From the NCBI GenBank assembly GCA_017656425.1, contig JACDNV010000012.1, forward strand, positions 1 to 64,000: 64,000 nt of DNA. The letters are read 5' to 3'. The notes under the pieces are model-generated. The model did not search any database. It was not told the DNA's origin and was given only the letters and a program-made list of their open reading frames with translations. Every line of letters starts with the position of its first letter. Positions within the stretch are counted from its first letter, which is position 1. This DNA is from Candidatus Neomarinimicrobiota bacterium. Its GTDB lineage: Bacteria > Fidelibacterota > UBA2242 > B5-G15. Shown here one piece after another: positions 34,291 through 57,322 of the stretch. Position numbers and translations under genes: made by a program.

Positions 34291-34291
34291 T

Positions 34292-35422
34292 TTAATTTCC
34301 TCCTCTAATATTATGGCTTTTTTTAAATATTGATGTTCTTCTGGTTATTTCTACTATCTTTTCTGCAAATAGAATTGTTTTTGGGTTAATATCATAGGTA
34401 GCAAAAATAAATGGTCTATTAGTTTTAATGGTGAATATATCTAATCCACCAGGTAATTTAGCAGTGTGATGAATATATATAGCGATTGCAGTCAAAGCTT
34501 TAACACCTCACTTGTTAACATCGATGTAAGGTTTATGTACCTTTTTCAATATAAGGCTATCTATCATAGGAAAGTTGGCTTTAAATAAATCGAGGGTAAT
34601 TTCCATTTCCATCTCCTTTAGGATATTTTCCAAATATTACTATACCCGGTTTCAAATTTAAATTTCGGGACATAGAATGCTATGTTTTTTTTGTTCAATA
34701 GAGTTAAGAAAGCTTATCTGTGAGTCTGTAATCGGGTTATCAATAACTGAGTCTAATTTTATATCTATTTTATGAAGGATGATAGTCATGTCAAGTTATT
34801 CATTACCACAAGGAAGATTGATGGCTTAAATTTTATTGCCTTCATAATATAGAAATTCATTGTTCTGATACACCATCTCACAAGATTGAGTGATTCCACC
34901 AAATTTATGAAATTTATTTATTTTCATGGGTGCATCAGGGGAGGAGAAATCTAAATCTTCTACTTTAGCATTAAAATACTTTTTGCCTGTATTCTCGAAG
35001 TTCTTGAAGACATTAAATCCTATTTTATACCAGACTGAGTTTGCAATCGAAAGAGACACACTGTTATCCAGGTATATTAAGTAGTACATTAAATTTTTAT
35101 ATGATTGATTGATTTCATCAATTGATAGTTCACTAAATTTCAAAGTGTCCCTCATTGCTTTTTCTGTTTTATCGTTTGATTCATTATAGGTCATACCAAG
35201 AATATAGTAAATGCTTATTGGTGAAATAAAAATATTCTCTGAATTAATGCTATTTGATATTTCTTTGAAAAGTTCTAATCTAGATTCGTTGGAATTTTCC
35301 GTCAGGTTGATTTCTTGAGGCGAGAGTTCTATGTTTTGATTTACAGGTTCATCTGAAGCTTTATAAAATGACAGAGATATTATTAGTAATTGAAATATCA
35401 CTATTAGGTATATCTTTTTCAT
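34292..35422 (-). pseudogene. Decayed second serpin gene
   Basis: A second serpin, tandem to the intact one and broken in several ways. The N-terminal part (35422-34826) has a signal peptide and FISPISIYYILGMTYNES. Relative to the neighbour it lacks about 55 residues after MKINKF. It then hits TAA at 34828-34826, a second TAA at 34798-34796 (after AINLPCGNE), a frame change near VPKFKFETGYSN, and an in-frame TGA at 34510-34508 just after PYIDVNK, where the hinge should be. The C-terminus (DIFTIKTNRPFIFATY...ILFAEKIVEI, 34495-34292) remains readable. The order of remnants follows the serpin fold, so this is one gene in decay. Likely duplicated from, or a paralogue of, the intact copy. Confidence 0.9.
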
Positions 35423-37546: not shown

Positions 37547-38578
37547 ATGCTCGTAAAGATTAAAGACTTTTTTGCATTTTTATATCTATGCAAGGAGAAA
37601 AATATTCTGGATGTTACAAGTGTATTACTTCCTGCAAATTCGGGAAATGATGAATTATTTTTAGATGAGCTTGCAAGCGATGGCGATTATATTATAGATT
37701 CATATAGACCTGTTGATCCTATAAAAGTTATCTTTTATCGAATAAGAGAGAGGATTTATCCTGAGGAGGAAGTAAAAGGCAAGAGGATAATTCTGGGTGT
37801 AAAGAATTGTGACCTGAAGGGACTACTATTGCTGGACAAAGCACTTATAAATGATGATTTTGTTGATCCAGTTTATAAAGAATGGCGTGATAACACGATT
37901 ATAATAACGAGCGATTGTTTGCAAATAACCGATACCTGTCATTGTAACCTTGTCGGGGGTAAGCCTTATTCAGAGGAAGGTTATGATATCAATTTATCGA
38001 GAGTAGGAGATAGCTACTTTTTAACTATTGGAAGTGGAATTGGTGAAAAGTTTGTAAATGAGATGAAAAAAGTGATAAAACCTGTCACATATAGTGATGA
38101 GATTTTGAAATTGATTGAAAGTAATAGAAAAAAAGTGATGAGTAAACTTGAGGAACAGAACAAAGAATTTGAAAGAAAACCTGATTATGATAAACTTGAG
38201 AAAGCTGATATAGAGACATGGATAGTAGAGTCTAAGGATTGTGTCGGATGTGGTGGTTGTAACAATATCTGTCCCACCTGCTATTGTATAATAATTAATG
38301 ATGAATCTGATGATAAAGATTTCATAAAAGTAAGGTCTTATGACTCCTGTCAATTGACCGGTTATGCACGAGTTGCAGGAGGTGCAAATCCGAGACCGAA
38401 GATATATCAGCGTTTTAGAAATAGATATCTGTGCAAATTTCTTTATATGAAATATAATTTTGATCTTTTAGGTTGTACAGGTTGCGGAAGATGTATAGAT
38501 GTGTGTCCTGGAAATATAGAATTTAGAGGTGTTGTTAAAAGAATTATGGAAAAAGAATTAAGTACTCAGGAGGTATAG
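37547..38578 (+). CDS. hydB: Sulfhydrogenase beta-like (HydB/AsrA) iron-sulfur subunit
   Basis: First gene of the hydrogenase operon. The 343 residues match the HydB subunit of soluble [NiFe] sulfhydrogenase and the related AsrA of anaerobic sulfite reductase: an N-terminal electron-transfer domain (GVKNCDLKGLLLLDKAL, then CHCNLVGGKPYSE), then two ferredoxin-type clusters, CVGCGGCNNICPTC from Cys232 and CTGCGRCIDVCP from Cys310. It carries electrons between the flavin subunit encoded by the next gene and the other iron-sulfur subunits. No sulfite-reductase catalytic subunit (AsrC) follows, so the hydrogenase role is favoured. The start has GGGGGTGG just upstream. It is 2 bases from the next gene. 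Confidence 0.82.
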   Translation: MLVKIKDFFAFLYLCKEKNILDVTSVLLPANSGNDELFLDELASDGDYIIDSYRPVDPIKVIFYRIRERIYPEEEVKGKRIILGVKNCDLKGLLLLDKALINDDFVDPVYKEWRDNTIIITSDCLQITDTCHCNLVGGKPYSEEGYDINLSRVGDSYFLTIGSGIGEKFVNEMKKVIKPVTYSDEILKLIESNRKKVMSKLEEQNKEFERKPDYDKLEKADIETWIVESKDCVGCGGCNNICPTCYCIIINDESDDKDFIKVRSYDSCQLTGYARVAGGANPRPKIYQRFRNRYLCKFLYMKYNFDLLGCTGCGRCIDVCPGNIEFRGVVKRIMEKELSTQEV

Positions 38579-38580
38579 AT

Positions 38581-39408
38581 ATGCAGGCTAATAATCCATA
38601 CAAAATAACTCGAGCAGAAGTTACAGATATAATAGAAGAATCTCCCACAATAAAGACATTTCATCTAAAGCCAGAGGTTCCAATTCCATTCAAGACCGGG
38701 CAGTTCATTCAGTTCTCAGTAGCAGGGATAGGGGAAGCTCCATTTACGCCATCCTCACCTCATCACATCAGTGAAGAGATGGATGTGACAATAATGAAGG
38801 CTGGTTTTGTTACCGAACATATCCACAATTTAAAAAAAGGTGATATAGTTGGTGTAAGGGGGCCATTTGGTACATGGTATCCTCTGGATAAATTTAAAGG
38901 GAAAGATATTTTAATAATGGGTGGTGGTGTAGGGATGGCGCCTACCAGATCATTATTTCTTACTTTATTAAATGATTTAGAGAATTATAACAGTATTACA
39001 TTTTTATGTGGAGCACGGTCTCCTGAAGATATGATTTATAAATATCAGATAGATGAATGGAGAAAACACAAAAATGTTAGGGTATTGAGAACTGTTGATA
39101 GAGTATCTGATGGACAAAGCTGGGATGAAGATGTTGGGCTTGTTACCAAGCTACTTGAAAAGATTGATATAGATCCAAAGGGCAATCCTGTGGTAGTTTG
39201 TGGACCCCCAATAATGATGAAATTTGCCACCATGGACCTTATAAGATACGGTTATACTCCCGATAATATTTATCTATCTATGGAAAAGAAAATGTATTGT
39301 GGTATAGGTCAGTGCAGGCATTGTGTAATGGGAAAATATTTTGTATGTAAAGATGGACCAGTTTTTACTTATGAAACGATAAAAAATGAGGAGAATATTT
39401 GGGAATGA
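38581..39408 (+). CDS. hydG: Sulfhydrogenase gamma-like (HydG/AsrB) FAD/NAD(P)H oxidoreductase
   Basis: Ferredoxin-NADP-reductase-type subunit. An N-terminal FAD-binding barrel (KTGQFIQFSV, then SSPHHIS in place of the classical RxYS), the flavin/NAD segment GDIVGVRGPFGTWYPL, a nucleotide-binding MGGGVGMAPTRSLFLTLL, a C-terminal GPPIMMKFA, and a 2Fe-2S site Cys240, Cys245, Cys248, Cys256 (CGIGQCRHC). This is the architecture of HydG of Pyrococcus-type sulfhydrogenase, AsrB and dihydroorotate dehydrogenase electron-transfer subunits. In this operon it should exchange electrons with NAD(H) or NADP(H); which one cannot be read from the motif. It overlaps the next gene by 4 bases. Confidence 0.85.
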   Translation: MQANNPYKITRAEVTDIIEESPTIKTFHLKPEVPIPFKTGQFIQFSVAGIGEAPFTPSSPHHISEEMDVTIMKAGFVTEHIHNLKKGDIVGVRGPFGTWYPLDKFKGKDILIMGGGVGMAPTRSLFLTLLNDLENYNSITFLCGARSPEDMIYKYQIDEWRKHKNVRVLRTVDRVSDGQSWDEDVGLVTKLLEKIDIDPKGNPVVVCGPPIMMKFATMDLIRYGYTPDNIYLSMEKKMYCGIGQCRHCVMGKYFVCKDGPVFTYETIKNEENIWE

Positions 39409-39908
39409 AGAGATTATTAATTGATATACCGAAGTTAATTGAATCAGGTAAATCGGTAGAAGATATTAAATGTGAATATTTTTATCACAGAAAAAATCCG
39501 GGGCATTTTTCGTTACTCGAGGTGGCAGAATTTGCGGTGTATTGCAGACAGTGTAAAGAGGCTTTTTGTGTGCTTGCATGTCCAAAGGAGGCTTTAGAAA
39601 GAACGGAATATGGTTTGATAAAAAGATACAATATGCGATGTGTGGGTTGTAAAAGTTGTGTGCTTGCATGTCCTTTTGGAACAATATTCCCCGATGTCAT
39701 TAATTACATTACTGCTAAGTGTGATTATTGTTTAAAACAGCTGGAAAAAGATGCCGAATACCAACCTCTATGCGTAAAAACTTCTCCTGACGGTTCACTT
39801 CAGATGGTGGATATTGAGAAGGAAGATCCAGAAAATTACATTTTCTTTTATGGAGAACATTTAGCGATCAAAAGCAGAAGTTGGCGACATAAGGAGGAAA
39901 AGGTATGA
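39405..39908 (+). CDS. Ferredoxin-like multi-[4Fe-4S] electron-transfer protein
   Basis: Electron-transfer subunit, 167 residues, with several cysteine motifs: CRQCKEAFCVLACP, CVGCKSCVLACPFG and CDYCLKQ, arranged as in HycB/HydN/CooF-type polyferredoxins that feed hydrogenases. It probably links the HydBG-like head to the membrane module. The ATG at 39405 overlaps the previous stop (ATGA) and GAGGAG lies about 10 bases upstream; an in-frame TTG at 39399 is the alternative. It overlaps the downstream mbhM start by 4 bases. Confidence 0.85.
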   Translation: MKRLLIDIPKLIESGKSVEDIKCEYFYHRKNPGHFSLLEVAEFAVYCRQCKEAFCVLACPKEALERTEYGLIKRYNMRCVGCKSCVLACPFGTIFPDVINYITAKCDYCLKQLEKDAEYQPLCVKTSPDGSLQMVDIEKEDPENYIFFYGEHLAIKSRSWRHKEEKV

Positions 39909-40831
39909 ACTGGTGGTATTTGTTTTATCTTCTTGTTTTCCCGGGTCTGATTTTTACGGCGGTTGTAGGACTACTTGTCGGGTGGATTGATAGAAAAGTC
40001 TCTGCAAGAGTACAATTTCGTGTTGGACCTCCTTTATTTCAAAACTTTTATGATTTTATAAAATTACTCGGAAAAGAAACGATAATAGTTAGGAATAGTT
40101 TAAAATCACTGTTTGTACTTTCACCTTTAATAGCGTTTGCAACGTTTGTTCTTGTTTCCACGATCGTAGGAGTACCATTATTCTTCGGTGAAAGTTTTTA
40201 TGGTGATATATTTGTTGTTATGTATTTATTAATGATTTACTCTGTAATGGTAATACTCGGTGGAGCATCGACAGGGAATGTTTACTCAAGCCTTGGTGCT
40301 GGCAGAGAAATAAAGTTACTGCTAGCAGATGAGCTTTCATTCATTCTGGTATGTCTTATCCCAATAATCAAATCGGGATATAAAATAAAATTAGAGGAAA
40401 TAGTAATTGCACAGTCATCTGTTCCTTTTATTGCTTCTGTATCGGGTGTAATTGCATTTATTTTTGGGATTTTGTGTATTCAAGCGAAAATGGTTTTACC
40501 TCCCTTTCATATACCAGAAGCTGAGACTGAAATTGTCGAGGGACCATTTATAGAATACTCAGGTCCTCTTTTAGGTTTCTGGAAATTGAATCAGTTTATG
40601 ATGTGGGTATTTTACCCTTTTTTGCTAATCCTATTATTTCTTGGGGGATATAATTCTAATGGTTTAGGTCTTTTGTGGTTTATTTTAAAATATATCGGAA
40701 TAGTGGTATTAATGATATTGATAAAAAATACCAATCCAAGAATTAGAATTGATACTGCTATAAAATTTTTCTGGCGGCTTGCTACGCCGATCGTTTTTAT
40801 TGGTGTTATACTCGCTATATATGGGGTTTAA
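39905..40831 (+). CDS. mbhM: Group 4 hydrogenase membrane subunit (NuoH/MbhM-like)
   Basis: Membrane anchor corresponding to complex I subunit NuoH (ND1) and MbhM/EchB. Signature: the start of helix 1 (FPGLIFTAVVGLLVGWIDRKVSARVQFRVGPP), an amphipathic loop FYDFIKLLGKET, a charged loop with ADELSF, and PPFHIPEAETEIVEGPF, the conserved Glu-rich loop near the quinone-like cavity or proton path. About eight membrane helices. At 308 residues it is typical. It docks the hydrogenase arm to the ion-pumping arm. Confidence 0.93.
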   Translation: MNWWYLFYLLVFPGLIFTAVVGLLVGWIDRKVSARVQFRVGPPLFQNFYDFIKLLGKETIIVRNSLKSLFVLSPLIAFATFVLVSTIVGVPLFFGESFYGDIFVVMYLLMIYSVMVILGGASTGNVYSSLGAGREIKLLLADELSFILVCLIPIIKSGYKIKLEEIVIAQSSVPFIASVSGVIAFIFGILCIQAKMVLPPFHIPEAETEIVEGPFIEYSGPLLGFWKLNQFMMWVFYPFLLILLFLGGYNSNGLGLLWFILKYIGIVVLMILIKNTNPRIRIDTAIKFFWRLATPIVFIGVILAIYGV

Positions 40832-40834
40832 AAA

Positions 40835-41254
40835 ATGAGTTGGTATACAAAAAAATTAGCAAAATCCATATGGGTGTTTCATGTAAGTGCATCACCCTGT
40901 AATAATTGCGATATTGAAATACTTAGTTTGTTGACTCCGAAGTATGATGTTGAAAGGTTTGGTATAAAATTGGTAGGTTCCGTCAGACATGCCGATGCAC
41001 TTCTTGTAACGGGTATAATGAATAAAAAAGTCGCTCCAAGAGTTAAGTATATTTATGAGCAAGCTCCAAAACCTGTTTTTGTTATTGGAGTTGGAAGCTG
41101 TCCAGCGTCAGGTATCATGTTCAGAGACAGTTATAATTTCCCTGCCCAAGAAATGGAAGAAATTCCTTTTAATGTATATATACCGGGCTGTCCACCAAAA
41201 CCAGAAGCTATGCTTGAAGGTATTGTAAAACTATTGGAGGCACTTAATGGGTAA
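40835..41254 (+). CDS. mbhJ: Group 4 hydrogenase small subunit (NuoB/MbhJ-like)
   Basis: Holds the proximal [4Fe-4S] cluster next to the NiFe site. Cluster ligands are visible: Cys22 and Cys25 in SPCNNCD, the Cys of GVGSCPASG, and the Cys of IPGCPPKPE. The CNNCD variant (Cys-x2-Cys-Asp) is that of group 4 hydrogenases (Mbh/Ech/Hyc) rather than NuoB (CC). At 139 residues it is normal for MbhJ. It overlaps the next gene by 8 bases. Confidence 0.94.
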   Translation: MSWYTKKLAKSIWVFHVSASPCNNCDIEILSLLTPKYDVERFGIKLVGSVRHADALLVTGIMNKKVAPRVKYIYEQAPKPVFVIGVGSCPASGIMFRDSYNFPAQEMEEIPFNVYIPGCPPKPEAMLEGIVKLLEALNG

Positions 41255-41681
41255 AGATATTTATGAAGAATTTAAAGCAAAGTTTGGTGATATTATCCAT
41301 GTAAGAAGAGAGAAAAGTAATCGATTGTACTTCTTTGTCCCTGAAAAGAATTTGCGTTCGGTAGTTAAATATATTTTTAATGAAATTGGTTGTAGGCTGT
41401 CAACTGCTACAGCTCTTGAACGTCCTGATGGTTTTGAAGTTATTTACCATTTTTCACATGATAAAACAGGCAAGTACTTTTGTCCAACGGTTTTTATTTC
41501 AAATAAAGACCAGCCTTCTATGAATTCCATTACTCCAATTGTAAAAGGTGCTGAATGGATTGAGAGAGAAATAATGGAAATGTTTGGAATACGGTTTAAA
41601 GGACATCCGAGGCCTGAGAAATTGCTTATGCTCAATAATCCTGGTAATTTGGACAGGCCATTAAGAATAGGAGGAAAGTGA
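41247..41681 (+). CDS. mbhK: Group 4 hydrogenase NuoC/MbhK-like subunit
   Basis: Complex I 30-kDa/NuoC-like accessory subunit, 144 residues. Family features are EVIYHFSHDKTGKYFCPTVFISNKDQPSMNSITPIVKGAEWIEREIMEMFGIRFKGHPRPEKLL, of which the IEREIMEMFGI(R)F.GHP block is diagnostic. The protein supports the interface of large and small subunits. Ribosome site GGAGG lies 6 bases before the ATG, inside the mbhJ gene. Overlap with the large-subunit gene is by a single base if the ATG start of that gene is used. Confidence 0.93.
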   Translation: MGKDIYEEFKAKFGDIIHVRREKSNRLYFFVPEKNLRSVVKYIFNEIGCRLSTATALERPDGFEVIYHFSHDKTGKYFCPTVFISNKDQPSMNSITPIVKGAEWIEREIMEMFGIRFKGHPRPEKLLMLNNPGNLDRPLRIGGK

Positions 41682-42856
41682 TGGAACGAGTTATTCCCGT
41701 TGGACCTTTTCACCCGTTGCTTGAGGAAGCAGAATTTTTTACTTTGAAGGTTGATGGAGAGTATGTTGTCGATATAGATATCGAGATAGGTTGGTTGCAT
41801 CGTGGTCATGAATTTATATCTGAACAAAAGACCTTTACTCAATCAATATATCTTGTGGAAAGAATTTGTGGAATTTGCTCCACTTCCCATCCCATTGCGT
41901 TTGTGCATGCAGTTGAGGATGTAGCAGATATTGAAGTTCCTGTAAGAGCAAAAATAATTCGTACCTTAATTGGTGAGCTGGAAAGAATCCACAGTCATCT
42001 TCTATGGATAGGGCTTGCTGGTCATTTTATAGGATATGATACTGTATGGATGTGGGCGTGGAAATACAGGGAGCCAGTGCTTCAAATGTTTGAAATTATA
42101 TCAGGAAATAGAAATCACTATGGTATGATGAGGATTGGTGGAGTAGGAAAAGATGTGGAGCCTGATTCCATTAGTGATCTTGAAAAAATATTAAGTAGTA
42201 TAGAGAAAAAAATGTATATGTTTGCAAAAGTTGTAAAGGATGATCCTGTATTAAAATCAAGGTTAAAAGGTGTGGGTGTATTGAAAAAGGAAGATGCAAT
42301 AGCATATTGTGCTGTTGGTCCAACGGCTCGTGCCTCAGGAGTTGCGATTGATGTTCGAAAAGACGAACCTAGGGATGCTTATGATATGGTAAATTTTAAT
42401 ATTATTGTTTTAGAAAATGGTGATGTGTATGATAAATTTGTCGCAAGAGTATTGGAAGTTATTGAATCAGCTAAAATCTGTAAACAATGCCTTAAGCTTT
42501 TAAGAAAGGAGAAGGGTCCTGTTTTAAACAATGTCAAAGAGATACCACCTGGTGAAGGAATTGGAAGATATGAAGCGCCTCGTGGAGAGGTGCTTCACTA
42601 TGTCCGAACTGACGGTTCAAATAGAGCTGTTAGACACAAAGTTAGAGCACCGAGTTATGCAAATATCCCTACTTGCAAAGCTAGCTGCATAGGGATTCCT
42701 GTGGCTGATGCCTTAATTACCACTGCATCTATAGATCCATGTTATTGTTGCACCGAGAGGTCTGTAAAGATTGTGGATGAGAAGAATAGAGAGTTGCATT
42801 TGGATTTATTAAAATTATCATGGGAGAAAACAGAGCGAATTCGGAGGGGATTATAA
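41681..42856 (+). CDS. mbhL: Group 4 [NiFe] hydrogenase large (catalytic) subunit
   Basis: Catalytic subunit carrying the NiFe(CN)2CO centre. Both cysteine pairs are present: Cys63-x2-Cys66 in ERICGICSTSHP and Cys354-x2-Cys357 in DPCYCCTER. This rules out NuoD, which lacks them, and makes proton reduction or H2 oxidation likely. After CTER (Arg360) 31 residues remain; this matches the processed tail of the HycE type, and a HycI-like protease gene lies further down the operon. Other family blocks: GWLHRGHEF, ELERIHSHLLW, GPTARASG, PRGEVLHYV. The ATG at 41681 is preceded by AGGAGG at 6 bases; a GTG at 41678 is an alternative. Confidence 0.95.
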   Translation: MERVIPVGPFHPLLEEAEFFTLKVDGEYVVDIDIEIGWLHRGHEFISEQKTFTQSIYLVERICGICSTSHPIAFVHAVEDVADIEVPVRAKIIRTLIGELERIHSHLLWIGLAGHFIGYDTVWMWAWKYREPVLQMFEIISGNRNHYGMMRIGGVGKDVEPDSISDLEKILSSIEKKMYMFAKVVKDDPVLKSRLKGVGVLKKEDAIAYCAVGPTARASGVAIDVRKDEPRDAYDMVNFNIIVLENGDVYDKFVARVLEVIESAKICKQCLKLLRKEKGPVLNNVKEIPPGEGIGRYEAPRGEVLHYVRTDGSNRAVRHKVRAPSYANIPTCKASCIGIPVADALITTASIDPCYCCTERSVKIVDEKNRELHLDLLKLSWEKTERIRRGL

Positions 42857-44674
42857 ATGCAATTTAATGAGCTCAGCTTATTAGTATTAATACCATTTTT
42901 GATAGGTCTGGTGAATATATTTATACCTGTATTTCTTAGAAAGTTATTAACTCTTGCGTGTATGATATATCTAATGGTTTTAACTATTGGAATTTTTGGA
43001 AATGAAAATATAACTGTTAGATTGATGAACATTGATTTACTGCGTGTGGACAGGCTTGCCTATCTTTCGTTGATATTCATTCAGATACTGGGTTTAATCA
43101 TTTTAATTTTTAGTCTTACAGGTGTGGAAGGTGTAATAGAAAAGAGATTTTTTATTTTATTTCCCCTTACTGTATCTTTTTCTAACGGAGCAGTTTTGAG
43201 TATAAATGGATTGTCTTTTATAATTTTTTGGGGTCTATCCGGGGTAGTACTTTATCTTTTTGCATTACTTGGTACAAAAAGCGGAGCGCCATCCTCGGCA
43301 AAAAAGACGTTTATGATTGTTGGCGCAAGCGATTCAGTTTTGATTCTTGGATTTTTGTTGTTATGGTTTTTGGAACCGTCGAGCTGGATGAAGCTATGGG
43401 ATATTAAAATGGAACTTGCAGGTGAGCTTGCCTATCTCTCATTTCTATGCTTGATGATTGCCTCATTCACAAAGGCAGGAGGATTTCCCTTTCATACATG
43501 GGTACCGGATTATTGTACAGATTCACCGATTGAGAGTTCTGCACTTTTACCAGCGAGTATTGATAAACTATTGGGTATTTACCTCCTTGCCAGAATGGTG
43601 TTGAATTTATTTATAATGAATACAGCTATGTCATTACTTTTGATGACTCTCGGTGCAATTACTATTATTGTAGCTGTAATGATGGCGATGATTCAGCATG
43701 ATGGGAGAAGACTGCTAAGTTATCATGCAGTGAGTCAGGTAGGATATATGATACTTGGTGTAGGTAGTGGTAGTATATTGGGTTTTGTAGGGGGCTTATT
43801 CCATACAATTAATAACTCTTTATATAAATCTGGATTATTTCTCTCATTGGGAGCAGTTGAAAAAAGAACTGGGACGAGTGATCTGGACAAGCTCGGAGGC
43901 ATCGGGAGAAATATGCCGATAATATTTATTTCAGCACTTTTTTGCTCTTTTGCAATCTCAGGTATACCACCTTTCAATGGGTTCTTTTCAAAATGGATGA
44001 TTTATCAGGGAATTATTGAGATGAGCTCAATATCTGTGTCTGGTTATCAGATATGGTTACTAATTTTGCTTATTATGGCAGTATTCGGTAGTGCTTTGAC
44101 ACTGGCAAGCTTTATGAAATTTCTACATTCAGTATTCCTAGGTGTCCGACCAAAGGCATATGAAAAGATTAGAGAAGCTAGTTTAAATCAATGGATAGCT
44201 ACCCTTACAATCGCACTTATATGTTTAGCTTTTGGTATATTTGCTAATCAACTGCCCATTAGATATTTATTTCTACCTATTCTTGAGAAAACAGGTATTC
44301 GATCGCCGAATTATATTGGCCTATATAATCCCATTTTTCTTACGATATTGTTTTTAATTCCATTTTTGATTGGTTTTATAATATTTTTAGTTGTGAAAAA
44401 TGTACGGCTGGATGATGTATATCTTGGCGGTATGAAACCATCTGAAAAGTTCAGAATAATTGGTACTGAATTTTACAATGAAATAAGAAGAATGCAGCCT
44501 CTTAAGAGTCTGTATGACTGGGCGGAGAGGAAATACTTTGATATATATGATCTTGGGAAAAAGATTTCATTTTCTATCACAAAACTATTGAAATCTATTC
44601 ATTCAGGACAATTACAACTATATAGCTTATGGATTATGATTGGGTTGTTAATTCTTTTGTACATTGTTTCTTAA
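42857..44674 (+). CDS. NuoL/M-type antiporter-like ion-translocating subunit
   Basis: Multi-helix membrane protein of the Mrp/complex I antiporter family. Key motifs: the segment FPFHTWVPDYCTDSPIESSALLPASIDKLLGIYLLARM (TM7 Pro/Lys region), SYHAVSQVGYMILGVG (TM8 broken helix), and FNGFFSKWM (TM12). At 605 residues it is longer than MrpD, with a C-terminal amphipathic tail and a last membrane helix (LYSLWIMIGLLILLYIV). It is the first of two such large subunits here; the complex therefore resembles Mbh/Mbs and Hyf-type enzymes with more than one pump-like channel. Whether H+ or Na+ is moved is not visible. A GGAGGGG ribosome site precedes it. Confidence 0.9.
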   Translation: MQFNELSLLVLIPFLIGLVNIFIPVFLRKLLTLACMIYLMVLTIGIFGNENITVRLMNIDLLRVDRLAYLSLIFIQILGLIILIFSLTGVEGVIEKRFFILFPLTVSFSNGAVLSINGLSFIIFWGLSGVVLYLFALLGTKSGAPSSAKKTFMIVGASDSVLILGFLLLWFLEPSSWMKLWDIKMELAGELAYLSFLCLMIASFTKAGGFPFHTWVPDYCTDSPIESSALLPASIDKLLGIYLLARMVLNLFIMNTAMSLLLMTLGAITIIVAVMMAMIQHDGRRLLSYHAVSQVGYMILGVGSGSILGFVGGLFHTINNSLYKSGLFLSLGAVEKRTGTSDLDKLGGIGRNMPIIFISALFCSFAISGIPPFNGFFSKWMIYQGIIEMSSISVSGYQIWLLILLIMAVFGSALTLASFMKFLHSVFLGVRPKAYEKIREASLNQWIATLTIALICLAFGIFANQLPIRYLFLPILEKTGIRSPNYIGLYNPIFLTILFLIPFLIGFIIFLVVKNVRLDDVYLGGMKPSEKFRIIGTEFYNEIRRMQPLKSLYDWAERKYFDIYDLGKKISFSITKLLKSIHSGQLQLYSLWIMIGLLILLYIVS

Positions 44675-44690
44675 AATTTTGGGGGTGTAA

Positions 44691-45239
44691 ATGCCTGTAG
44701 AAACTTGGCTATTATTCTTATTATCCTATATGATAATTGGATCGATTGTAGCTCTGGAGCTAAAGAATATTCTTGCTTCTATTGTTTCAATCGGAATAGT
44801 TGGTCTTGGTGTATCGGTGGCATTTCTAATGCTTCAGGCTCCTGATCTTGCTATTGTTCAGTTTTTATTTGAGATATTCGCACTTATTATTCTGGTAAGA
44901 GCTTTTTCGAAAAAGGAATACCATGAAGAAAGAGCTCAAAGAGTAACAGGAGTGATGTTGGCTTTTACAATTATAGTTTTACTGGCAGTTCTGGCTTCAA
45001 GTGTTCCAATTTTTAAAGCACTTCCACCATTTGGTGAGCCTATAATGGGGATTGCGAAATACTATATAGAAAATGGTGCGGCACAGACTGGTTCAGCCAA
45101 TGTTGTAACATCCATAATTCTTGATTATAGAGCCTATGACACACTGGGTGAGGTAACAGTGTTATTTACAGCAATACTTGGCGCATTAACCATTTTGAAG
45201 GTTCGTTCGAAGAAAGAAGAAGAGGAAGAAAATGAATAA
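44691..45239 (+). CDS. MrpA C-terminal-like subunit (MbhD+MbhE fusion, DUF4040)
   Basis: Membrane subunit of about six helices matching the C-terminal half of MrpA, which in Mbh is split into MbhD and MbhE; here both are joined. The first part has LKNILASIVSIGIVGLGVSVAFLMLQAPDLAIVQFLFEI, the DUF4040/MbhD signature. The second has NVVTSIILDYRAYDTLGEVTVLFTAILGALTIL, the MbhE signature. At 182 residues. The tail is charged (KKEEEEENE) and the stop overlaps the next gene by 8 bases. Confidence 0.9.
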   Translation: MPVETWLLFLLSYMIIGSIVALELKNILASIVSIGIVGLGVSVAFLMLQAPDLAIVQFLFEIFALIILVRAFSKKEYHEERAQRVTGVMLAFTIIVLLAVLASSVPIFKALPPFGEPIMGIAKYYIENGAAQTGSANVVTSIILDYRAYDTLGEVTVLFTAILGALTILKVRSKKEEEEENE

Positions 45240-45681
45240 TAAAGAGGGAATGACCTTAATTGTTAAAACTGTGGCAAGAATAAGTGTATGGCTTATTATT
45301 CTATATGGAATATATATTGTTTTACATGGTCATCTAACTCCGGGAGGTGGATTTGCAGGTGGTGTGATAATATCTCTGGCGTTTTTAAATTTCATGCTGG
45401 CTTATGGAAGGAATAATACATCAAAATGGCTTAATATAAGTCTTTTAAGTGATATTGAAGCTTCCAGCGCTTCGCTTATACTGGCACTTGGAATTATGGG
45501 GATGGCCTTCGGAGGTGGATTTTTAGCAAATTTCATCACAAAGGGGAAGCTATTCCATCTTTTAAGCGCAGGTACAATTCCAATTTATAATATATTAATT
45601 GGTGCTAAAGTTGGAATGGCACTGTTTGTTGTTGTATGGACACTTGCAATTACAAGAATTGGTGAGGAGGTAGAGGGATGA
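45232..45681 (+). CDS. mrpB: MrpB/MnhB-like antiporter subunit
   Basis: Small membrane subunit of Mrp-type antiporters and MbhF. The hallmark GHLTPGGGFAGGVI is present after helix 1, with four helices overall and the typical segment GAKVGMALFVVVWTLAI. At 149 residues. ATGAATAA overlap with the previous gene shows coupled translation. It is part of the sodium-translocating module. Confidence 0.93.
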   Translation: MNNKEGMTLIVKTVARISVWLIILYGIYIVLHGHLTPGGGFAGGVIISLAFLNFMLAYGRNNTSKWLNISLLSDIEASSASLILALGIMGMAFGGGFLANFITKGKLFHLLSAGTIPIYNILIGAKVGMALFVVVWTLAITRIGEEVEG

Positions 45682-46025
45682 TTTCCTATTTAATATATGT
45701 TCTTTGTTTTGCTCTATTTCTTGTCGGAGTGTATGGAATTTTAACGAAAAGAGATCTTATAAAAATTATATTAGCTACTGGTATAATGGGTTATTCAGCA
45801 AATCTATTTCTTATTCTGTTTGCATATAAGAAGGGTGCTCTTTATCCTATATTGTCAAAAGGAGAGGAAGTCAAGGCAATGGTTGATCCTTTACCTCAGG
45901 CACTTGTTCTAACATCAATAGTTATAGAGCTTGGTATCACAGCGATGCTTGTAGCTCTTGCTATTAAATTATATGAGAGGTATAAGACATTTGATATTAC
46001 TAAAATTAGGAGGCTTTCAGGATGA
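45678..46025 (+). CDS. mrpC: MrpC/NuoK-like antiporter subunit
   Basis: Three-helix membrane subunit of 115 residues matching MrpC/MnhC/MbhG and NuoK. Signature: VGVYGILTKRDLIKIILATGIMGYSANLFLI and PLPQALVLTSIVIELGITAMLVALAI, with the buried Glu of helix 2-3. Overlaps both neighbours by 4 bases (ATGA). Confidence 0.94.
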   Translation: MISYLIYVLCFALFLVGVYGILTKRDLIKIILATGIMGYSANLFLILFAYKKGALYPILSKGEEVKAMVDPLPQALVLTSIVIELGITAMLVALAIKLYERYKTFDITKIRRLSG

Positions 46026-47503
46026 TCCTCCCGTTTTTCATCATTATTCCGTTGTTAGCAGCGTTTCTAATAACGCTAGTCTCTGGTAAGAAAGATAACT
46101 GGGCTATAATATTATCCATACTTGCTGAGCTTTCTGTACTGGTGCTGGCAGTTTTTTGCTATGTATATCAGATCGATGATATATTTGTTTATAATATGAG
46201 TGGCTGGAAGATTCCCTTTACTATTTGCCTTGTTCAGGATGCCCTCTCGTGTTTTATGATTATGGTCGTAAGTATAATAGCGCTTACCAGCCTAATATAT
46301 TCGGTTACCTATATAAGGCATCTGGTTTCTTCCTGGAGGTATTATGCACTGTTTATGCTTCTTGTTACTGGAATGAATGGTGTAATATTGACTGGTGATT
46401 TATTCAATCTCTTTGTATTTATGGAAATCGCTCTATTCTCTGCTTATGCACTTGTTTCCTATGGCAGAAAAGCGGAGGAATTTGAAGCAGCTTTTAAATA
46501 TGCTATAATGGGTTCTATATCATCATCACTTATCCTTATTGGTATAGCGATAACGTATAGTTACACATCTTCGTTAACCATGGCAACAATTGCTGAAAGC
46601 TTAAAGAATAAACCAGCAGGGGTGACCTTCTGGCTGGGTAGTCTATTCTTAGCGGGGTTTGGACTTAAGTCAGCAATGGTGCCTTTTCATGCATGGCTCC
46701 CCGATGCCCATTCATCAGCGCCCGCTCCAATCTCGTCAATGCTGTCCGGTGTATTGATAAAGTCACTTGGTATTTATACAATTATAAGAATATTTTATAA
46801 TGTTTTTGGTGCCCCTGAGCTTTTTAAAACTCTATTTTTAGTTTTTGGAATATTATCCATAGTTATTGCCTCTTTTCTAGCAATTGGTCAATGGGATATC
46901 AAGAGATTGCTAGCATATAGTAGTATAAGCCAGATTGGTTTTATACTTGTCGGATTGGGAGTTGGAAATTTTTATGGTATACTCGGTGCTATATTTCATC
47001 TTTTAAGCCATGCTATATTTAAGTCATTGTTGTTTTACAATACAGGTGCAATAGAGATGGCAATTGGAACAAGAGATATGAGAGATATGGGGGATTTAAG
47101 GAAAGCTCTACCAGTTACATCGTTCACGTCTATGGTTGGTAGTCTTGCAATAATGGGAATGCCCCCTTTTAATGGATTTTTCAGTAAGTTTTTCATAATA
47201 ATGGGATTATTGCAAGCAAAGATGTATATAGTGGCATTATTAGTTGTGCTCGGCAGTATCTTAACTATTGCCTATTTTGTCAAATTTCAGAGATATGGAT
47301 TCAGGGGAAAAAATGTGATAGAGAAAGAGATGGTTGCAGAACCTATTGGTTCGGGAATGAAATTTTCAATGGCATTCCTTGCTTTACTATGTCTTGTAAC
47401 TAGCTTGATGTTAATACCAGGGCTAAGAGAGACAACATTAGATCCAGTTATAAATGTTATTCTTGATAAAACGGGTTATATTAAATCTGTACTTGGGAGG
47501 TAA
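46022..47503 (+). CDS. mrpD: MrpD-like antiporter subunit
   Basis: Second large antiporter-like subunit, 493 residues, about fourteen helices. Motifs: LTGDLFNLFVFMEIALFSAYALVSYG (TM5, containing the key Glu), VPFHAWLPDAHSSAPAPISSMLSGVLIKSLGIYTIIRI (TM7), LLAYSSISQIGFILVG (TM8), and FNGFFSKFF (TM12 Lys region). Closest to MrpD/MbhH. Together with the 605-residue subunit it gives two putative ion channels. Tight packing with mrpC and mrpE. Confidence 0.95.
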   Translation: MILPFFIIIPLLAAFLITLVSGKKDNWAIILSILAELSVLVLAVFCYVYQIDDIFVYNMSGWKIPFTICLVQDALSCFMIMVVSIIALTSLIYSVTYIRHLVSSWRYYALFMLLVTGMNGVILTGDLFNLFVFMEIALFSAYALVSYGRKAEEFEAAFKYAIMGSISSSLILIGIAITYSYTSSLTMATIAESLKNKPAGVTFWLGSLFLAGFGLKSAMVPFHAWLPDAHSSAPAPISSMLSGVLIKSLGIYTIIRIFYNVFGAPELFKTLFLVFGILSIVIASFLAIGQWDIKRLLAYSSISQIGFILVGLGVGNFYGILGAIFHLLSHAIFKSLLFYNTGAIEMAIGTRDMRDMGDLRKALPVTSFTSMVGSLAIMGMPPFNGFFSKFFIIMGLLQAKMYIVALLVVLGSILTIAYFVKFQRYGFRGKNVIEKEMVAEPIGSGMKFSMAFLALLCLVTSLMLIPGLRETTLDPVINVILDKTGYIKSVLGR

Positions 47504-47506
47504 AAG

Positions 47507-48013
47507 ATGAGCATAAAGTTAAAAAGTAGGATAGTTGTATTTATACTCTCGTTTTTAGTCTGGGTTGCTCTTACAAGTATAAGAGATTTACAGGAGGTAG
47601 TAGCGGGAATATTTATAGCTTTAATAGTGAGCTTACTCGCTGGTGGATTCTTTATTCAGGAGAAAAGTAGAGGACGTCTTTTAAAAAGAATTTTTTATGG
47701 AGTAATATATATATTCAAATTTCTATGGGAAATGTTCAAAGCAAATTTACATGTTGCGTATATTGTAATTAATCCGAAACTACCAATAAAACCAGGTATT
47801 GTTAAAATAAAATCTAAGCTTTCAAAAGATACAGGACTTACAGCGCTTTCGAATTCGATTACATTGACTCCGGGTACGCTAACGGTTGATATTAATAAAG
47901 AAAAGGGGGAGCTATATATTCACTGGATTGATGTTGCTTCTCCAGATGTGGATGAAGCAACAAAAGAAATAGGTGGTAGATTTGAAAAAATACTGCTGGA
48001 GGTGTTTGAATGA
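47507..48013 (+). CDS. mrpE: MrpE-like antiporter subunit
   Basis: MrpE/MnhE/MbhA-like, 168 residues: two N-terminal helices then a soluble domain. The diagnostic block is AYIVINPKLPIKPGIVKIKSKL...GLTALSNSITLTPGTLTVDI, followed by LYIHWIDV. It completes the antiporter with mrpF and mrpG. Overlaps mrpF by 4 bases. Confidence 0.94.
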   Translation: MSIKLKSRIVVFILSFLVWVALTSIRDLQEVVAGIFIALIVSLLAGGFFIQEKSRGRLLKRIFYGVIYIFKFLWEMFKANLHVAYIVINPKLPIKPGIVKIKSKLSKDTGLTALSNSITLTPGTLTVDINKEKGELYIHWIDVASPDVDEATKEIGGRFEKILLEVFE

Positions 48014-48348
48014 AATATCTTAGATGGTTTTTGGGACTTATTTTTATAGCTACATTTTTATATTTTAATTTCTTTATATATCAGGCTGATATAATACCGA
48101 AATTGATAAATGTGATTTTATTCAGTGCCCTTTTTGTGCTCTTCAGAGTTATTTTCGGGCCTTCGCCAGCAGATAGAATAGTTGCCGTTGATATCCTTGG
48201 GATTCTAATCATAGGCATGCTTGCACTATTTGGCTTATTTTATGAAAAATCATTCTTTATGGATATTGGTTTAATCTGGGCACTTTTAAGTTTTATAGCT
48301 TCTCTGGCTTTTGCAAAGATACTTGAGGGGAGGCAGCTTGATGATTAG
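48010..48348 (+). CDS. mrpF: MrpF-like antiporter subunit
   Basis: Three-helix subunit (112 residues) of MrpF/MnhF/MbhB type, recognised by the segment FRVIFGPSPADRIVAVDILGILIIGMLAL, in which GPSPADRIVAVD is the family signature. Its start overlaps mrpE and its stop overlaps the mrpG start (ATGATTAG). Confidence 0.93.
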   Translation: MKYLRWFLGLIFIATFLYFNFFIYQADIIPKLINVILFSALFVLFRVIFGPSPADRIVAVDILGILIIGMLALFGLFYEKSFFMDIGLIWALLSFIASLAFAKILEGRQLDD

Positions 48349-48682
48349 AGAGATAATTGGGCTAATTTTTATAATCATAGGTGTAACATTTGATTTTCTC
48401 GGTGTATTAGGGCTTGTAAGATTACCTGACGTGTATAATCGATTACAGGCAGCGACTAAATGTGTCACTTTTGGTTCAGCAGGTGTTTTATTTGGAGTAT
48501 TTATATTACAGGGATTTAATAGCTTTGGTTTTAAGGCTCTTATAGGAATTATATTTATATTTCTAACATCACCTGTAGCCGCACATGCAATTTCCAGAGC
48601 ATCTCACAGGAGTGGAATTCCATTAACCAAAGAAACAGTTGTAGATAAATATCAGGAAGATCACGAGTTGAGGGAAGAGTAA
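48341..48682 (+). CDS. mrpG: MrpG-like antiporter subunit
   Basis: MrpG/MnhG/MbhC-like, three helices. Signature: DFLGVLGLVRLPDVYNRLQAATKCVTFGSAG and FIFLTSPVAAHAISRASHRSGIP. The ATG at 48341 has GAGGGGAGG upstream (48326-48333) and overlaps the mrpF stop; an upstream extension to 48311 would overlap mrpF far more and is rejected. At 113 residues it is normal. Confidence 0.94.
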   Translation: MIREIIGLIFIIIGVTFDFLGVLGLVRLPDVYNRLQAATKCVTFGSAGVLFGVFILQGFNSFGFKALIGIIFIFLTSPVAAHAISRASHRSGIPLTKETVVDKYQEDHELREE

Positions 48683-49284
48683 TGTATGCACCAAAATTAA
48701 GAGAATTAGTGGAAGCTCTGAGGTCTTTATTTTCAAGACCATATACGACGCGTTTCCCGAAGGGAAAATATGAACCTGTGAAGGAATATAGAGGTTTCCC
48801 CCAATTTTTTGAGGAAGATTGTGTAGGCTGTGGTACCTGCTATCAGGTTTGTCCTGCTGGAGCAATAGAGATGAACGATGACATTAAAAAAGGAGTTAGG
48901 GTTTTAAAAATTGATTATAGTTCCTGTATCCAGTGTGGTCAATGTGAAGAACACTGTATTACAGAGAGGGGGATTAGAATTACCACAAAATATTCTGTCC
49001 CAATTTTTAGTCTATCAGAAGATAATTATTTTAATGTCATAGAGAAAAAACTTGTTAAGTGTGAAATTTGTGGAAAGAGTTTTGCCTGTGAAGACCATTT
49101 GCATTTTATAAGAAAAAGATTGGGAGCAAAATCATATGCTCATCCAAATCTTTTGATTGGATTACAGAAAAAATTGGGAAGTATCCCTGAAGCAAAATAT
49201 AAGGGGAGAATCAGAAGAGAAGACTACATAAAAGAGGTATGCCCTATCTGTCGTCACAAGATTGTTGTAGAGGATGAATTTTAA
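48682..49284 (+). CDS. mbhN: NuoI/MbhN-like ferredoxin subunit with extra C-terminal Cys motif
   Basis: Polyferredoxin subunit with two [4Fe-4S] motifs, CVGCGTCYQVCPAGA and CIQCGQCEEHC, as in NuoI, EchF and MbhN; it should pass electrons to the MbhJ cluster and would be the docking site for ferredoxin. The C-terminal part has four more cysteines, C-EIC and C-PIC (KCEICGKSFACED ... EVCPICRHKI), probably a zinc- or extra-cluster-binding module not found in the smallest MbhN proteins. At 200 residues. Overlaps the mrpG stop and the hycI start. Confidence 0.9.
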   Translation: MYAPKLRELVEALRSLFSRPYTTRFPKGKYEPVKEYRGFPQFFEEDCVGCGTCYQVCPAGAIEMNDDIKKGVRVLKIDYSSCIQCGQCEEHCITERGIRITTKYSVPIFSLSEDNYFNVIEKKLVKCEICGKSFACEDHLHFIRKRLGAKSYAHPNLLIGLQKKLGSIPEAKYKGRIRREDYIKEVCPICRHKIVVEDEF

Positions 49285-49735
49285 AGAATTATTCAGTATA
49301 ATTGAAAATGGTGGATACAAAAAGATATTGATAATTGGAATTGGGAATGAACTTAGGGGAGACGACAGAGCAGGACTGATATTAGCTGAAAAGGTTTTTG
49401 AGAACCTAAGCATTTTTATCCCAACAATAAAAAAGATAATTGCAGGTACAAATCCAGAAAACTATATTGAGAAAATGATAAAATTCTCACCTGAATTGAT
49501 AATAATTTTCGATTCATCCGATTTCGGTGCTGAGCCAGGGACGGTTCAATTATTTAGAAGAGAAGATATAAGTAATAACTCAATAAGCACTCATGCTTAT
49601 AGCATAGGTATAATTGAAGATTATATAAAAAGGTCTATAAATTCTGATGTGTTTTATGTTTTAATACAGAAGAAAAATACTGAATTTGGCAGGAAAATAT
49701 CACGAGAAGTTCTAAAAGGCATTGAGGAATTCTAA
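49274..49735 (+). CDS. hycI: HycI/HyaD-type hydrogenase maturation protease
   Basis: Endopeptidase that removes the C-terminal tail of the hydrogenase large subunit after nickel insertion. The GIGNELRGDDRAGL block at the N-terminus has the conserved metal-sensing Asp/Glu, IIIFDSSDFGAEPGTV follows, and STHAYSIGIIEDYI supplies the conserved His. At 153 residues it is typical. The ATG at 49274 overlaps mbhN by 11 bases. It supports processing of the 31-residue tail seen on the large subunit. Confidence 0.93.
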   Translation: MNFKELFSIIENGGYKKILIIGIGNELRGDDRAGLILAEKVFENLSIFIPTIKKIIAGTNPENYIEKMIKFSPELIIIFDSSDFGAEPGTVQLFRREDISNNSISTHAYSIGIIEDYIKRSINSDVFYVLIQKKNTEFGRKISREVLKGIEEF

Positions 49736-49737
49736 AA

Positions 49738-51063
49738 TTGGAAAATTCGAATTCACTTTTTCCCTTCTATACAGTTAAGTCTTTAAGACACAGGATAGGC
49801 TGGATTATTAATCTTCGCTGGTTAGCGGTTTTTGCAATAATGACCGCCATTCCAATTGCCAGATATCTCTTTCGATTTGAAATTGATTATGAGAATATAT
49901 ATTTTATTTCCACCTTACTATTGGTTTTAAATATAATATACTTTTTCTTCTATAGATACTATCCTTTTACATCTTTTAGTCAGGAGGTTGTCTTTACAGA
50001 AATACAAATACTGCTGGATTTTGTAATTATTTCCTTTTTAATTCATTTTTCTGGCGGAATAGAAAATCCATTCTATTTTCTATATATAGTGAACATAATT
50101 TTGTCCGGTATACTTTTAAAGGGGATATTGCCATTTATCAATACTATATTTGCCTCTTTACTTTTAACTATGTGGACAATTCTCGAATATCTTGAAAAGG
50201 TCGATGTATACAACCTCTGGGAAAATGAACCAGATTTATCATATGTTATAGTATCCCTTGTGGCTTTTTATTTCCTTGCCTTTGCTTCAACATTACTTAT
50301 TGTCGATTTTATGAAAAGGTACAGAAAACTTAAATCGATCATTGATGATAAATCGAGTCAACTAGAAGAAACAATAAATGAAAGAGACAAAATTTTCAGG
50401 TTTACTGCCCATGAATTGAAATCCCCCATTACTACTCTGAAAAGTACGCTATCTGTATTAAATAAAGTTTATTCAGAAAAAATTGATAAGGAGGCGAGAG
50501 ATCTTCTTGATCGAGCTGAAAATCGAGTTGATCAGATACTGGATATGGTAAAGGATATGATTGAGATAACAAGGTACAAAAGACCAGAAGAAGAGGTTGT
50601 AAAACTTGAAGAGGTGGATTTTTGCAACTGGATTAATTCAATTCTTGAATCTCAAAAGATAGACGCAAAAAATAAAGGTATTGAGCTTAAAATTGGTCCA
50701 ATCTCATGTGCAAGGATAGTTATAGATACTAATAGTTTAAGTAAAATCGCAATTAATCTTGTAAACAACTCAATTAGATATACCAACCCAGGCGGTAAAG
50801 TAACTGTAACGCCTTTTGTTAATAATAAAGAATATGGTGTCATAGTTGAAGATACTGGTATCGGAATACCTGAAAATGAGATCGATAAGATTTTCAATGA
50901 ATTTTACAGAGGTAAAAACGCAAAAGAAATGGAACGATTGGGAACTGGACTGGGATTGTCTCTTGTAAAGCAAATTGTTGATAGATTGGGTGGGAATATT
51001 AGGGTAGAAAGCAAAGTAGGAGTTGGTAGTAAATTCATTGTTACATTACCTTTTGCTGAATAG
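49738..51063 (+). CDS. RegB/PrrB-like membrane sensor histidine kinase
   Basis: Sensor kinase with six predicted N-terminal membrane helices (about 20-200), then HisKA with FTAHELKSPITTLKS (His225) and HATPase_c (NLVNNSIRYTNPGG, EDTGIGIPENEID, GTGLGLSLVKQIV). Between helices 3 and 4 it has GGIENPF (106-112), matching the GGxxNPF quinone-binding motif of the RegB/PrrB redox sensor family. The RegB redox cysteine after the His box is absent. TTG start: GAGGAA lies 7 bases upstream. Directly after hycI, so it may sense quinone, membrane redox or H2-related state and adjust the operon. No response regulator lies nearby. Confidence 0.85.
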   Translation: MENSNSLFPFYTVKSLRHRIGWIINLRWLAVFAIMTAIPIARYLFRFEIDYENIYFISTLLLVLNIIYFFFYRYYPFTSFSQEVVFTEIQILLDFVIISFLIHFSGGIENPFYFLYIVNIILSGILLKGILPFINTIFASLLLTMWTILEYLEKVDVYNLWENEPDLSYVIVSLVAFYFLAFASTLLIVDFMKRYRKLKSIIDDKSSQLEETINERDKIFRFTAHELKSPITTLKSTLSVLNKVYSEKIDKEARDLLDRAENRVDQILDMVKDMIEITRYKRPEEEVVKLEEVDFCNWINSILESQKIDAKNKGIELKIGPISCARIVIDTNSLSKIAINLVNNSIRYTNPGGKVTVTPFVNNKEYGVIVEDTGIGIPENEIDKIFNEFYRGKNAKEMERLGTGLGLSLVKQIVDRLGGNIRVESKVGVGSKFIVTLPFAE

Positions 51064-51236: not shown

Positions 51237-52418
51237 ATGATGTTATCCTCACAGGTAAAAGGTTTCTTAGAAAATGCTTCCTGGATAAGGAGAATGTTTG
51301 AAATTGGACATGAGTTAAAAAAGAAATATGGTTATCAAAATGTGTTTGATTTTACCCTTGGTAATCCTGATTTACCTCCACCGGCTGACTTTAAAAAACA
51401 TTTAATTGAAGAAGCTAGTAAGGATGAACCATTTATACATGGCTATATGTCTAATGCGGGATATGAAGATACTAGGGAGGCAATTGCGAAAAATCTCTCC
51501 AATGAACTCGACATGGATTTTAATAAGAAAAACATTATTATGACATGCGGAGCAGCTGGAGGTATGAATGTTATACTGCGAGCAATTTTGAATCCTGGTG
51601 ATAAGGTTGTTATTTTGTCCCCATATTTTGTTGAGTATAAATTCTATATTTTAAATCACCAAGGGCAGGTTGTTATTTCTGAGACCGATGAGACTTTTTT
51701 ACCTAATATAGAAGATCTTGATAAAAAAATTGATGATAGGACGAAAGCAATTATAATAAATACTCCGAACAATCCCACTGGTAGAGTATATGAAGATATG
51801 ATTCTTATAGATTTGGGTGATCTATTGTTAAAGAAATCAAAGGAGTTTGGTAAGCCTATATATTTATTATCAGATGAGCCATATAAAAGGATTGTTTACT
51901 CAGATCATAAATTTTATCCACCAATCAAATACTATAGGAATACAATGATTGTAAATTCCTTCTCAAAGGATTTATCAATCCCTGGTGAAAGGATTGGTTA
52001 TATAGCAATGCCTCCTGATTTGGATGGGGTGAGAGAAATTATAGAGGCGTGTGTGTTGTGCAATAGGATTCTTGGTTTCATAAATGCACCGGCAATAATG
52101 CAGAGAGTTATTAAGAATCTTTTAAATTCTTTGGTGGATGTAAATTTATATATGAAAAGAAGGGATATTTTCTATAATTCCCTTATAGAGATGGGATATA
52201 AAGTTATTAAACCAGGTGGAACATTTTATATGTTTCCAGAATCACCGATTAAAGATGATATTGAATTTTCCAAGATTTTAATGAATGAGCAGGTTCTGGT
52301 CACCCCGGGTTCTGGATTTGGAAGAAAGGGTTATTTTAGAATTTCATATTGCCAAGATGAAAAAATAATTTTAAAATCCCTTGAAAGATTTTACAGTGCG
52401 ATAAAGAAAGTAGAATAG
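51237..52418 (+). CDS. Class I/II PLP-dependent aminotransferase
   Basis: Aspartate-aminotransferase-fold enzyme, 393 residues. Features: [13 protein letters not shown], the substrate/PLP block [29 protein letters not shown] (PLP/substrate Asn), [11 protein letters not shown] (Asp and Tyr to PLP), and [17 protein letters not shown] with the Schiff-base Lys. The exact amino donor cannot be read. Its place immediately before the VOR genes suggests conversion of branched-chain or other amino acids to 2-oxo acids. It is 12 bases from the ferredoxin subunit gene. Confidence 0.93.
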
Positions 52419-52429
52419 GAGTTATTTCT

Positions 52430-52768: not shown

Positions 52769-52784
52769 ACGATTGGGAGTATTA

Positions 52785-57303: not shown

Positions 57304-57322
57304 AGATAATTTTTTTGATATT

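Follow-up and report, generated by a model that had tools for sequence, protein, structure and literature searches.

What enzyme is encoded by an operon in which the genes of a HydB/HydG-like pair, relatives of the electron-input subunits of soluble sulfhydrogenases, precede those of a group 4 [NiFe] hydrogenase and an Mrp-type membrane arm? The operon occupies positions 37547-49735 of a 64,000-nucleotide stretch (the window) on contig C12 of a Candidatus Neomarinimicrobiota genome (2.8 Mb, 99.7% complete), and comprises 17 genes, all on the plus strand and spaced by -11 to +16 nucleotides, from the HydB-like gene through that of a HycI-type protease. With moderate confidence, we read its gene content as that of a membrane-bound, ion-coupled [NiFe] hydrogenase complex in which HydBG would form a nicotinamide-reactive head, whichever way the electrons run. 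Anaerobes that live by fermentation or syntrophy face the central problem of how to form H2 from NADH, for which flavin-based confurcation is the best-known answer; if our reading holds, a group 4 hydrogenase that is coupled to ions and bears a HydBG head would offer a second answer, present in many uncultured lineages.

The proposed HydBG head and its linkage to the hydrogenase

The HydB-like protein scores against the ShyB/HydB and AsrA models with E values of 1e-44 to 3e-30, and the HydG-like protein against those of PRK08345, AsrB and HydG with 2e-66 to 4e-59, all below the curated NCBIfam equivalog cut-offs, so that both are relatives rather than certified members of these families. In agreement with the preliminary description of this DNA, which had recognised a HydB/HydG-like pair, the best solved relatives are the beta and gamma subunits of Pyrococcus furiosus sulfhydrogenase 1 (PDB 9nez). 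The likeness extends to the N-terminal cysteine motif of HydB, which is absent from the HydB that this genome encodes in its group 3b cluster; the hydrogenase part of sulfhydrogenase 1, however, is soluble and belongs to group 3b, whereas that of the window is a group 4 enzyme with a membrane arm. The presumptive cluster ligands of the head are strictly conserved: 15 HydB cysteines occur in each ortholog whose sequence spans them, the HydG [2Fe-2S] cysteines C240, C245, C248 and C256 are found in 65/65 sequences, and 11 cysteines of the CooF-like protein, a relative of the formate hydrogenlyase ferredoxin (7z0s_B), are invariant in 67 sequences.

As to the cofactor, HydG D173 occupies the position expected to select between NADH and NADPH and is kept in 64/65 sequences. 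Alignments place Asp there in PyrK and NfnA, which are named as NAD(+) enzymes, and Thr in the sulfhydrogenase 1 gamma subunit, the latter placed by eye in an ungapped alignment. Asp at this place presumably favours NADH in related reductases, which hints that NADH is the more likely cofactor; this is a hint only, since Asp also stands in the HydG of this genome's group 3b cluster.

We followed the linkage of head and hydrogenase in two samples, 61 related genomes and 80 loci from a scan of a wider contig collection. A large subunit (L) with 72% identity or more is encoded in 19 of the related genomes, and all but one of these also encode a HydG with 61% or more. Of the 18 pairs, 17 share a contig and one is split over short contigs; in the single genome with L and without HydG the L contig measures only 3.8 kb. 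The close HydG family was never seen in the 61 genomes without the large subunit or away from the hydrogenase, and the 46 other L matches (29-37% identity), which serve as a control, have no HydG match within 10 kb. In the wider collection HydB and HydG precede L on the same strand in 57 of the 59 loci with at least 4.8 kb of upstream sequence, all 17 genes lie on one contig in 33 loci, and the HydG-to-CooF spacing is identical in 27. The arrangement of hydBG beside mbhL and mrp genes, which the preliminary description had suspected in other anaerobes, recurs in at least 16 lineages by record titles, including Neomarinimicrobiota, Ignavibacteria, KSB1, Cloacimonadota, WOR-3, Latescibacterota, Omnitrophota, Thermotogae, Clostridia, Kiritimatiellota and Lentisphaerae. 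Conserved over so many phyla, the gene run is not a product of chance.

Since HydB and HydG match AsrA and AsrB models and the genome has a group 3b hydrogenase, the pair might instead be part of a sulfite reductase, or a group 3b electron module, that stands here by chance. We regard this as highly improbable. No match to AsrC exceeds the cut-off in any of the 19 cluster-bearing genomes, and on this ground we rejected membership of AsrABC. Group 3b large and small subunits are absent from the cluster; the group 3b cluster of the window's genome is complete, lies on another contig and owns a HydBG pair and a protease; and a convincing group 3b large subunit is missing from 17 of the 19 genomes, being present only in the window's own and its sister (other matches are about 30% identical). 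We therefore also rejected HydBG as the module of a soluble group 3b enzyme. With neither AsrC in any genome nor group 3b in most, HydBG has no other evident partner, and the independent one for which the preliminary description had allowed did not emerge from this survey.

Subunits of the hydrogenase and the membrane arm

Genes were identified by Pfam and NCBIfam profile searches of the window proteins, and solved relatives by PDB matches (Table 1). All genes of the preliminary description were found where it had placed them, as one plus-strand run; unbroken through 37547-49735, this run does not end there but continues into a sensor histidine kinase gene (49738-51063) with a probably regulatory role.

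The hydrogenase belongs to group 4: the large subunit carries both CxxC Ni-ligand motifs (N-terminal RICGIC, C-terminal DPCYCC) and is nearest to those of Mbh and formate hydrogenlyase, and the J, K, M and N subunits are complex I-like. Its Ni ligands C64, C67, C355 and C358 are kept in all orthologs that cover them, and the C-terminal extension after DPCYCCTER agrees with the presence of the HycI-type protease. Ligand cysteines of the J subunit are kept in 76 sequences (C22, C25, C89) and 77 sequences (C119), and the eight ferredoxin-motif cysteines of N in 50/50. The previously named set of M, J, K, L and N is complete, although N (48682-49284) follows the Mrp genes, apart from M-J-K-L. The nearest named relative in the collection, a Candidatus Neomarinimicrobiota metagenome-assembled genome (MAG), has a large subunit of 88% identity.

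The Mrp module likewise holds the expected B, C, D, E, F and G subunits and the 605-residue antiporter, but the supposed A-type subunit is a fused MbhD/MbhE, and there is no full MrpA. The 605-residue subunit has Gly at the position of the glutamate in transmembrane helix 5 (TM5) in 68/74 sequences while keeping the Lys residues, which makes its role in pumping uncertain. Mrp-type B, C, D, E, F and G together with MbhD/E make up the subunit set of the Mrp-linked Mbh (HydDB group 4d). That group is described as taking electrons from reduced ferredoxin and as having no nicotinamide head; from the latter trait the operon departs, with HydB and HydG genes inside it and conserved.

The donor of P. 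furiosus Mbh is ferredoxin. This enzyme (PDB 6cfw) has the best solved match of L and shares the Mrp-type subunits, but has no HydB, HydG or CooF-like subunit and one antiporter-like chain fewer. The extra chain is found in P. furiosus Mbs (PDB 6u8y), where it matches the 605-residue subunit end to end; Mbs reduces sulfane sulfur, and the Ni ligands are intact in the window's hydrogenase.

Table 1. Genes of the operon and the adjoining kinase gene in the window
Feature	Coordinates	Strand	Basis or remark
HydB/AsrA-like Fe-S subunit of putative NAD(P)H head	37547..38578	+	P. furiosus sulfhydrogenase 1 beta (9nez_B), E 7e-40
HydG/AsrB-like FAD/NAD(P)-binding subunit, [2Fe-2S] Cys motif	38581..39408	+	profile match to 9nez_C, E 4e-72
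CooF/DmsB/HycB-like ferredoxin, proposed head-hydrogenase adapter	39399..39908	+	alternative start ATG 39405; 10-nucleotide overlap with HydG
MbhM/NuoH-like membrane subunit	39905..40831	+	Pfam NADHdh, E 3e-63
MbhJ/NuoB-like small subunit, proximal [4Fe-4S]	40835..41254	+	Pfam Oxidored_q6
MbhK/NuoC-like subunit	41247..41681	+	Pfam Complex1_30kDa
MbhL [NiFe] large (catalytic) subunit, GTG start	41678..42856	+	best PDB match 6cfw_L (P. furiosus MbhL), E 2e-81
605-residue antiporter-like subunit	42857..44674	+	residues 4-601 on 2-614 of PDB 6u8y_X, second antiporter-like Mbs chain
Fused MbhD/MbhE, like C-terminal part of MrpA	44691..45239	+	Pfam/NCBIfam searches
MrpB/MbhF-like	45232..45681	+	Pfam MnhB
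MrpC/MbhG-like	45678..46025	+	Pfam Oxidored_q2
MrpD/MbhH-like antiporter subunit, canonical TM5 Glu (E135) and Lys residues	46022..47503	+	Pfam/NCBIfam
MrpE/MbhA-like	47507..48013	+	profile match
MrpF/MbhB-like	48010..48348	+	profile match
MrpG/MbhC-like	48341..48682	+	ATG 48341; listed open reading frame from 48311
MbhN/NuoI-like 2x[4Fe-4S] subunit, extra C-terminal Cys-containing part	48682..49284	+	profile match
HycI-type hydrogenase maturation endopeptidase	49274..49735	+	Pfam/NCBIfam
Sensor histidine kinase	49738..51063	+	2 nucleotides downstream of HycI gene; same place in many relatives

Proposed electron path, direction and energetics

In the complex that we infer, NAD(P)H, more likely NADH, would exchange electrons with the flavin adenine dinucleotide (FAD) of the HydG-like subunit, from which they would pass through its [2Fe-2S] cluster and the [4Fe-4S] clusters of the HydB-like subunit to the CooF-like ferredoxin, and on through N and J to the [NiFe] site of L, where H2 would be made or used. 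M and the Mrp-like arm (D, the 605-residue subunit, B, C, D/E, E, F and G) would couple this chemistry to the movement of an ion, Na+ or H+. Such a complex is probably reversible and probably also accepts electrons from reduced ferredoxin, at N or at the CooF-like subunit. Proteins of the CooF/HycB type usually connect a group 4 hydrogenase with its oxidoreductase, as in formate hydrogenlyase and the CO-dependent hydrogenase, and we count in favour of the complex that one lies at the junction of head and hydrogenase, its gene overlapping that of HydG. The Escherichia coli formate hydrogenlyase (PDB 7z0s), in which HycB forms this bridge, has the ferredoxin in common with the window operon and differs in its input, a formate dehydrogenase, and in having no Mrp set; profile searches found no formate dehydrogenase subunit among the genes at 37547-51063.

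That HydBG belongs with the membrane hydrogenase, as the preliminary description had claimed, is supported by the conserved order, the confinement of the close HydG family to genomes with L among the 61 related ones, the lack of an alternative partner in most of them, and pairwise distances that co-vary with those of L (correlations of 0.92 and 0.86 for HydG and HydB, in the 0.83-0.96 range of accepted subunits). Several points nevertheless weigh against HydBG as the head of the complex. The distance test carries little weight, as joint inheritance of a linked block would also raise the correlation, and no fusion of HydBG with a hydrogenase subunit was found among the loci (long open frames in L086, L118 and L125 were rejected as fusions, being overlapping frames instead). 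In about seven loci, mainly of WOR-3 and Latescibacterota, a further gene separates HydG from the CooF-like gene; the five inserted open reading frames that were read (L117, L118, L119, L124, L129) encode 511-571 residues, with molybdopterin oxidoreductase domains in 3/3 tested, and in such loci the head may serve another redox partner. In the Cloacimonadota loci L094 and L100, HydBG is not beside the hydrogenase, so not every locus requires the head; it looks modular. Finally, NADH cannot drive H2 formation at standard potentials, still less outward pumping.

The two Cloacimonadota loci, which keep the hydrogenase and the CooF-like gene, also count in favour of another explanation, namely an ordinary ferredoxin-dependent Mbh that is co-regulated with a separate soluble enzyme composed of HydBG and the CooF-like protein, for example an NAD(P)H:ferredoxin oxidoreductase or a sulfur or polysulfide reductase. 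Relatives of HydB and HydG do serve several soluble enzymes (sulfhydrogenase, Asr), and HydDB group 4g is listed as putatively ferredoxin-coupled (PMC5037454). We consider a separate enzyme unlikely in view of the breadth of the linkage, the HydG-CooF spacing shared by 27 loci, the confinement of the close HydG family to the neighbourhood of the hydrogenase in the 61 related genomes, and the bridging role usual for CooF/HycB-type proteins. Upstream of the hydrogenase, L094 and L100 encode a hydrogenase-related complex with no Ni-ligand cysteines in its large subunit. Its N-like ferredoxin shares one protein of 617-619 residues with a GltD/NfnB-like domain of the NAD(P)H oxidoreductase kind (L094:2678-4531, L100:4198-6057).

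The energetics of a HydBG-headed complex follow from potentials of about -280 mV for NADH, about -500 mV for ferredoxin and -414 mV for H2, as given in PMC9304861. By our calculation, H2 formation from NADH is uphill by about 26 kJ/mol at standard H2, with the break-even point near 3 Pa. On these potentials NADH alone could not afford outward pumping except at very low H2, and would yield H2 only under that condition or where the ion gradient pays. Three modes remain: gradient-driven H2 formation from NADH, joint use of ferredoxin and NADH, and the reverse reaction. The first is made plausible by the inventory of the window's genome, with a complete Rnf, the group 3b hydrogenase, a NuoE/NuoF/GltD-like set and no [FeFe] hydrogenase found. 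The set in question, on contig C25 (L138:6079-10308), consists of NuoE-like, NuoF-like and 678-residue ferredoxin/GltD-like genes in a row, and looks like a Bfu/Stn-type NADH-NADPH-ferredoxin enzyme.

The reverse reaction overlaps with our preferred reading: the same complex would run mainly with ferredoxin or H2 reducing NAD(P)+ via HydBG while the arm pumps ions, in the manner of an Rnf with a hydrogenase side port. Electron transfer from reduced ferredoxin to NAD+ is strongly downhill, parts of this kind are reversible, and a 2-oxoacid:ferredoxin oxidoreductase operon lies just downstream; the complete Rnf, on the other hand, makes a second ferredoxin:NAD+ pump less necessary. We hold this mode possible, if on the unlikely side. 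The downstream genes (51237-55273) encode an aminotransferase, a small ferredoxin, a VorB-like protein and a joined beta/gamma 2-oxoacid:ferredoxin oxidoreductase, which suggests amino acid fermentation.

Joint use of NADH and ferredoxin, which usually serve as paired substrates where NADH drives H2 formation, could in principle also occur by true flavin-based bifurcation or confurcation at the HydG flavin, as the preliminary description had suggested; this we consider very unlikely. The HydG-like protein belongs to the PyrK/NfnA/sulfhydrogenase-gamma type. In relatives that have been characterised, proteins of this type are not known to carry the flavin that bifurcates. Profile searches found no NuoF/NuoE-like (BfuB/BfuC-like) or NfnB-like gene in the cluster, which leaves the suggestion unsupported, and the ion-coupled membrane arm would be an alternative means of driving the uphill step. 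A bifurcating head on a group 4 hydrogenase has been proposed before: the Mbh-Bfu of Dehalococcoides, called uncharacterised, is predicted to carry an NADH-reactive head (Schut et al. 2022, PMC9304861), but that head is BfuABC, whereas the window's is HydBG. For the HydBG-headed complex we raise, with clearly less confidence than for the head itself, the possibility of a widespread uncharacterised class of membrane hydrogenases: a single ion-pumping complex would let electrons pass among NADH, ferredoxin and H2, and the gradient, rather than flavin bifurcation, would pay for uphill H2 formation from NADH.

Earlier reports and surrounding genes

The cluster is conserved and has been partly described before. 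In Saganbacteria RX5A, group 4 [NiFe] hydrogenase subunits, Mrp-like subunits, cooF, asrA and asrB were reported in one region, for which the consulted part of the paper proposes an 'oxidoreductase module' and names related sequences in Zixibacteria and Omnitrophica (Matheus Carnevali et al. 2019, PMC6349859). The RX5A cluster differs, as described there, in adding an unclassified molybdopterin oxidoreductase, which the window and most of its relatives lack and loci of WOR-3 and Latescibacterota have; in that same part we found no account of lineage breadth, partners or ligand conservation. The preliminary description knew of no characterised enzyme of this makeup, and we likewise found no biochemistry of this cluster in the open-access literature (most subscription papers lay outside the search), but the cluster itself had been reported.

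If our reading is correct, it would give a concrete hypothesis for the HydDB group 4g hydrogenases of 'undetermined role' (PMC5037454). Mrp-linked 4g hydrogenases are known from Cloacimonadota and Omnitrophota, including Ca. Celaenobacter, with no comment on a head in the portion of PMC8542988 consulted; in the Ca. Celaenobacter locus (L100) the only large subunit with Ni ligands is 68% identical to that of the window. Such enzymes are often annotated as ferredoxin-dependent (as in that portion of PMC8542988), and redox balance would then be mis-assigned in metabolic models. The large subunit is also encoded in an NPL-UPA2 MAG (L111); the first paper on an NPL-UPA2 MAG described an Mrp set but no hydrogenase genes of a well-known kind (PMC6305446).

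Counts from a promoter and terminator scan were not above those in shuffled sequence. Elsewhere in the window, a tandem pair of serpin genes lies on the minus strand at 33058-35422, the second apparently truncated (198 residues), and a bacterial class A RNase P RNA is encoded at 56901-57307 (272.9 bits).

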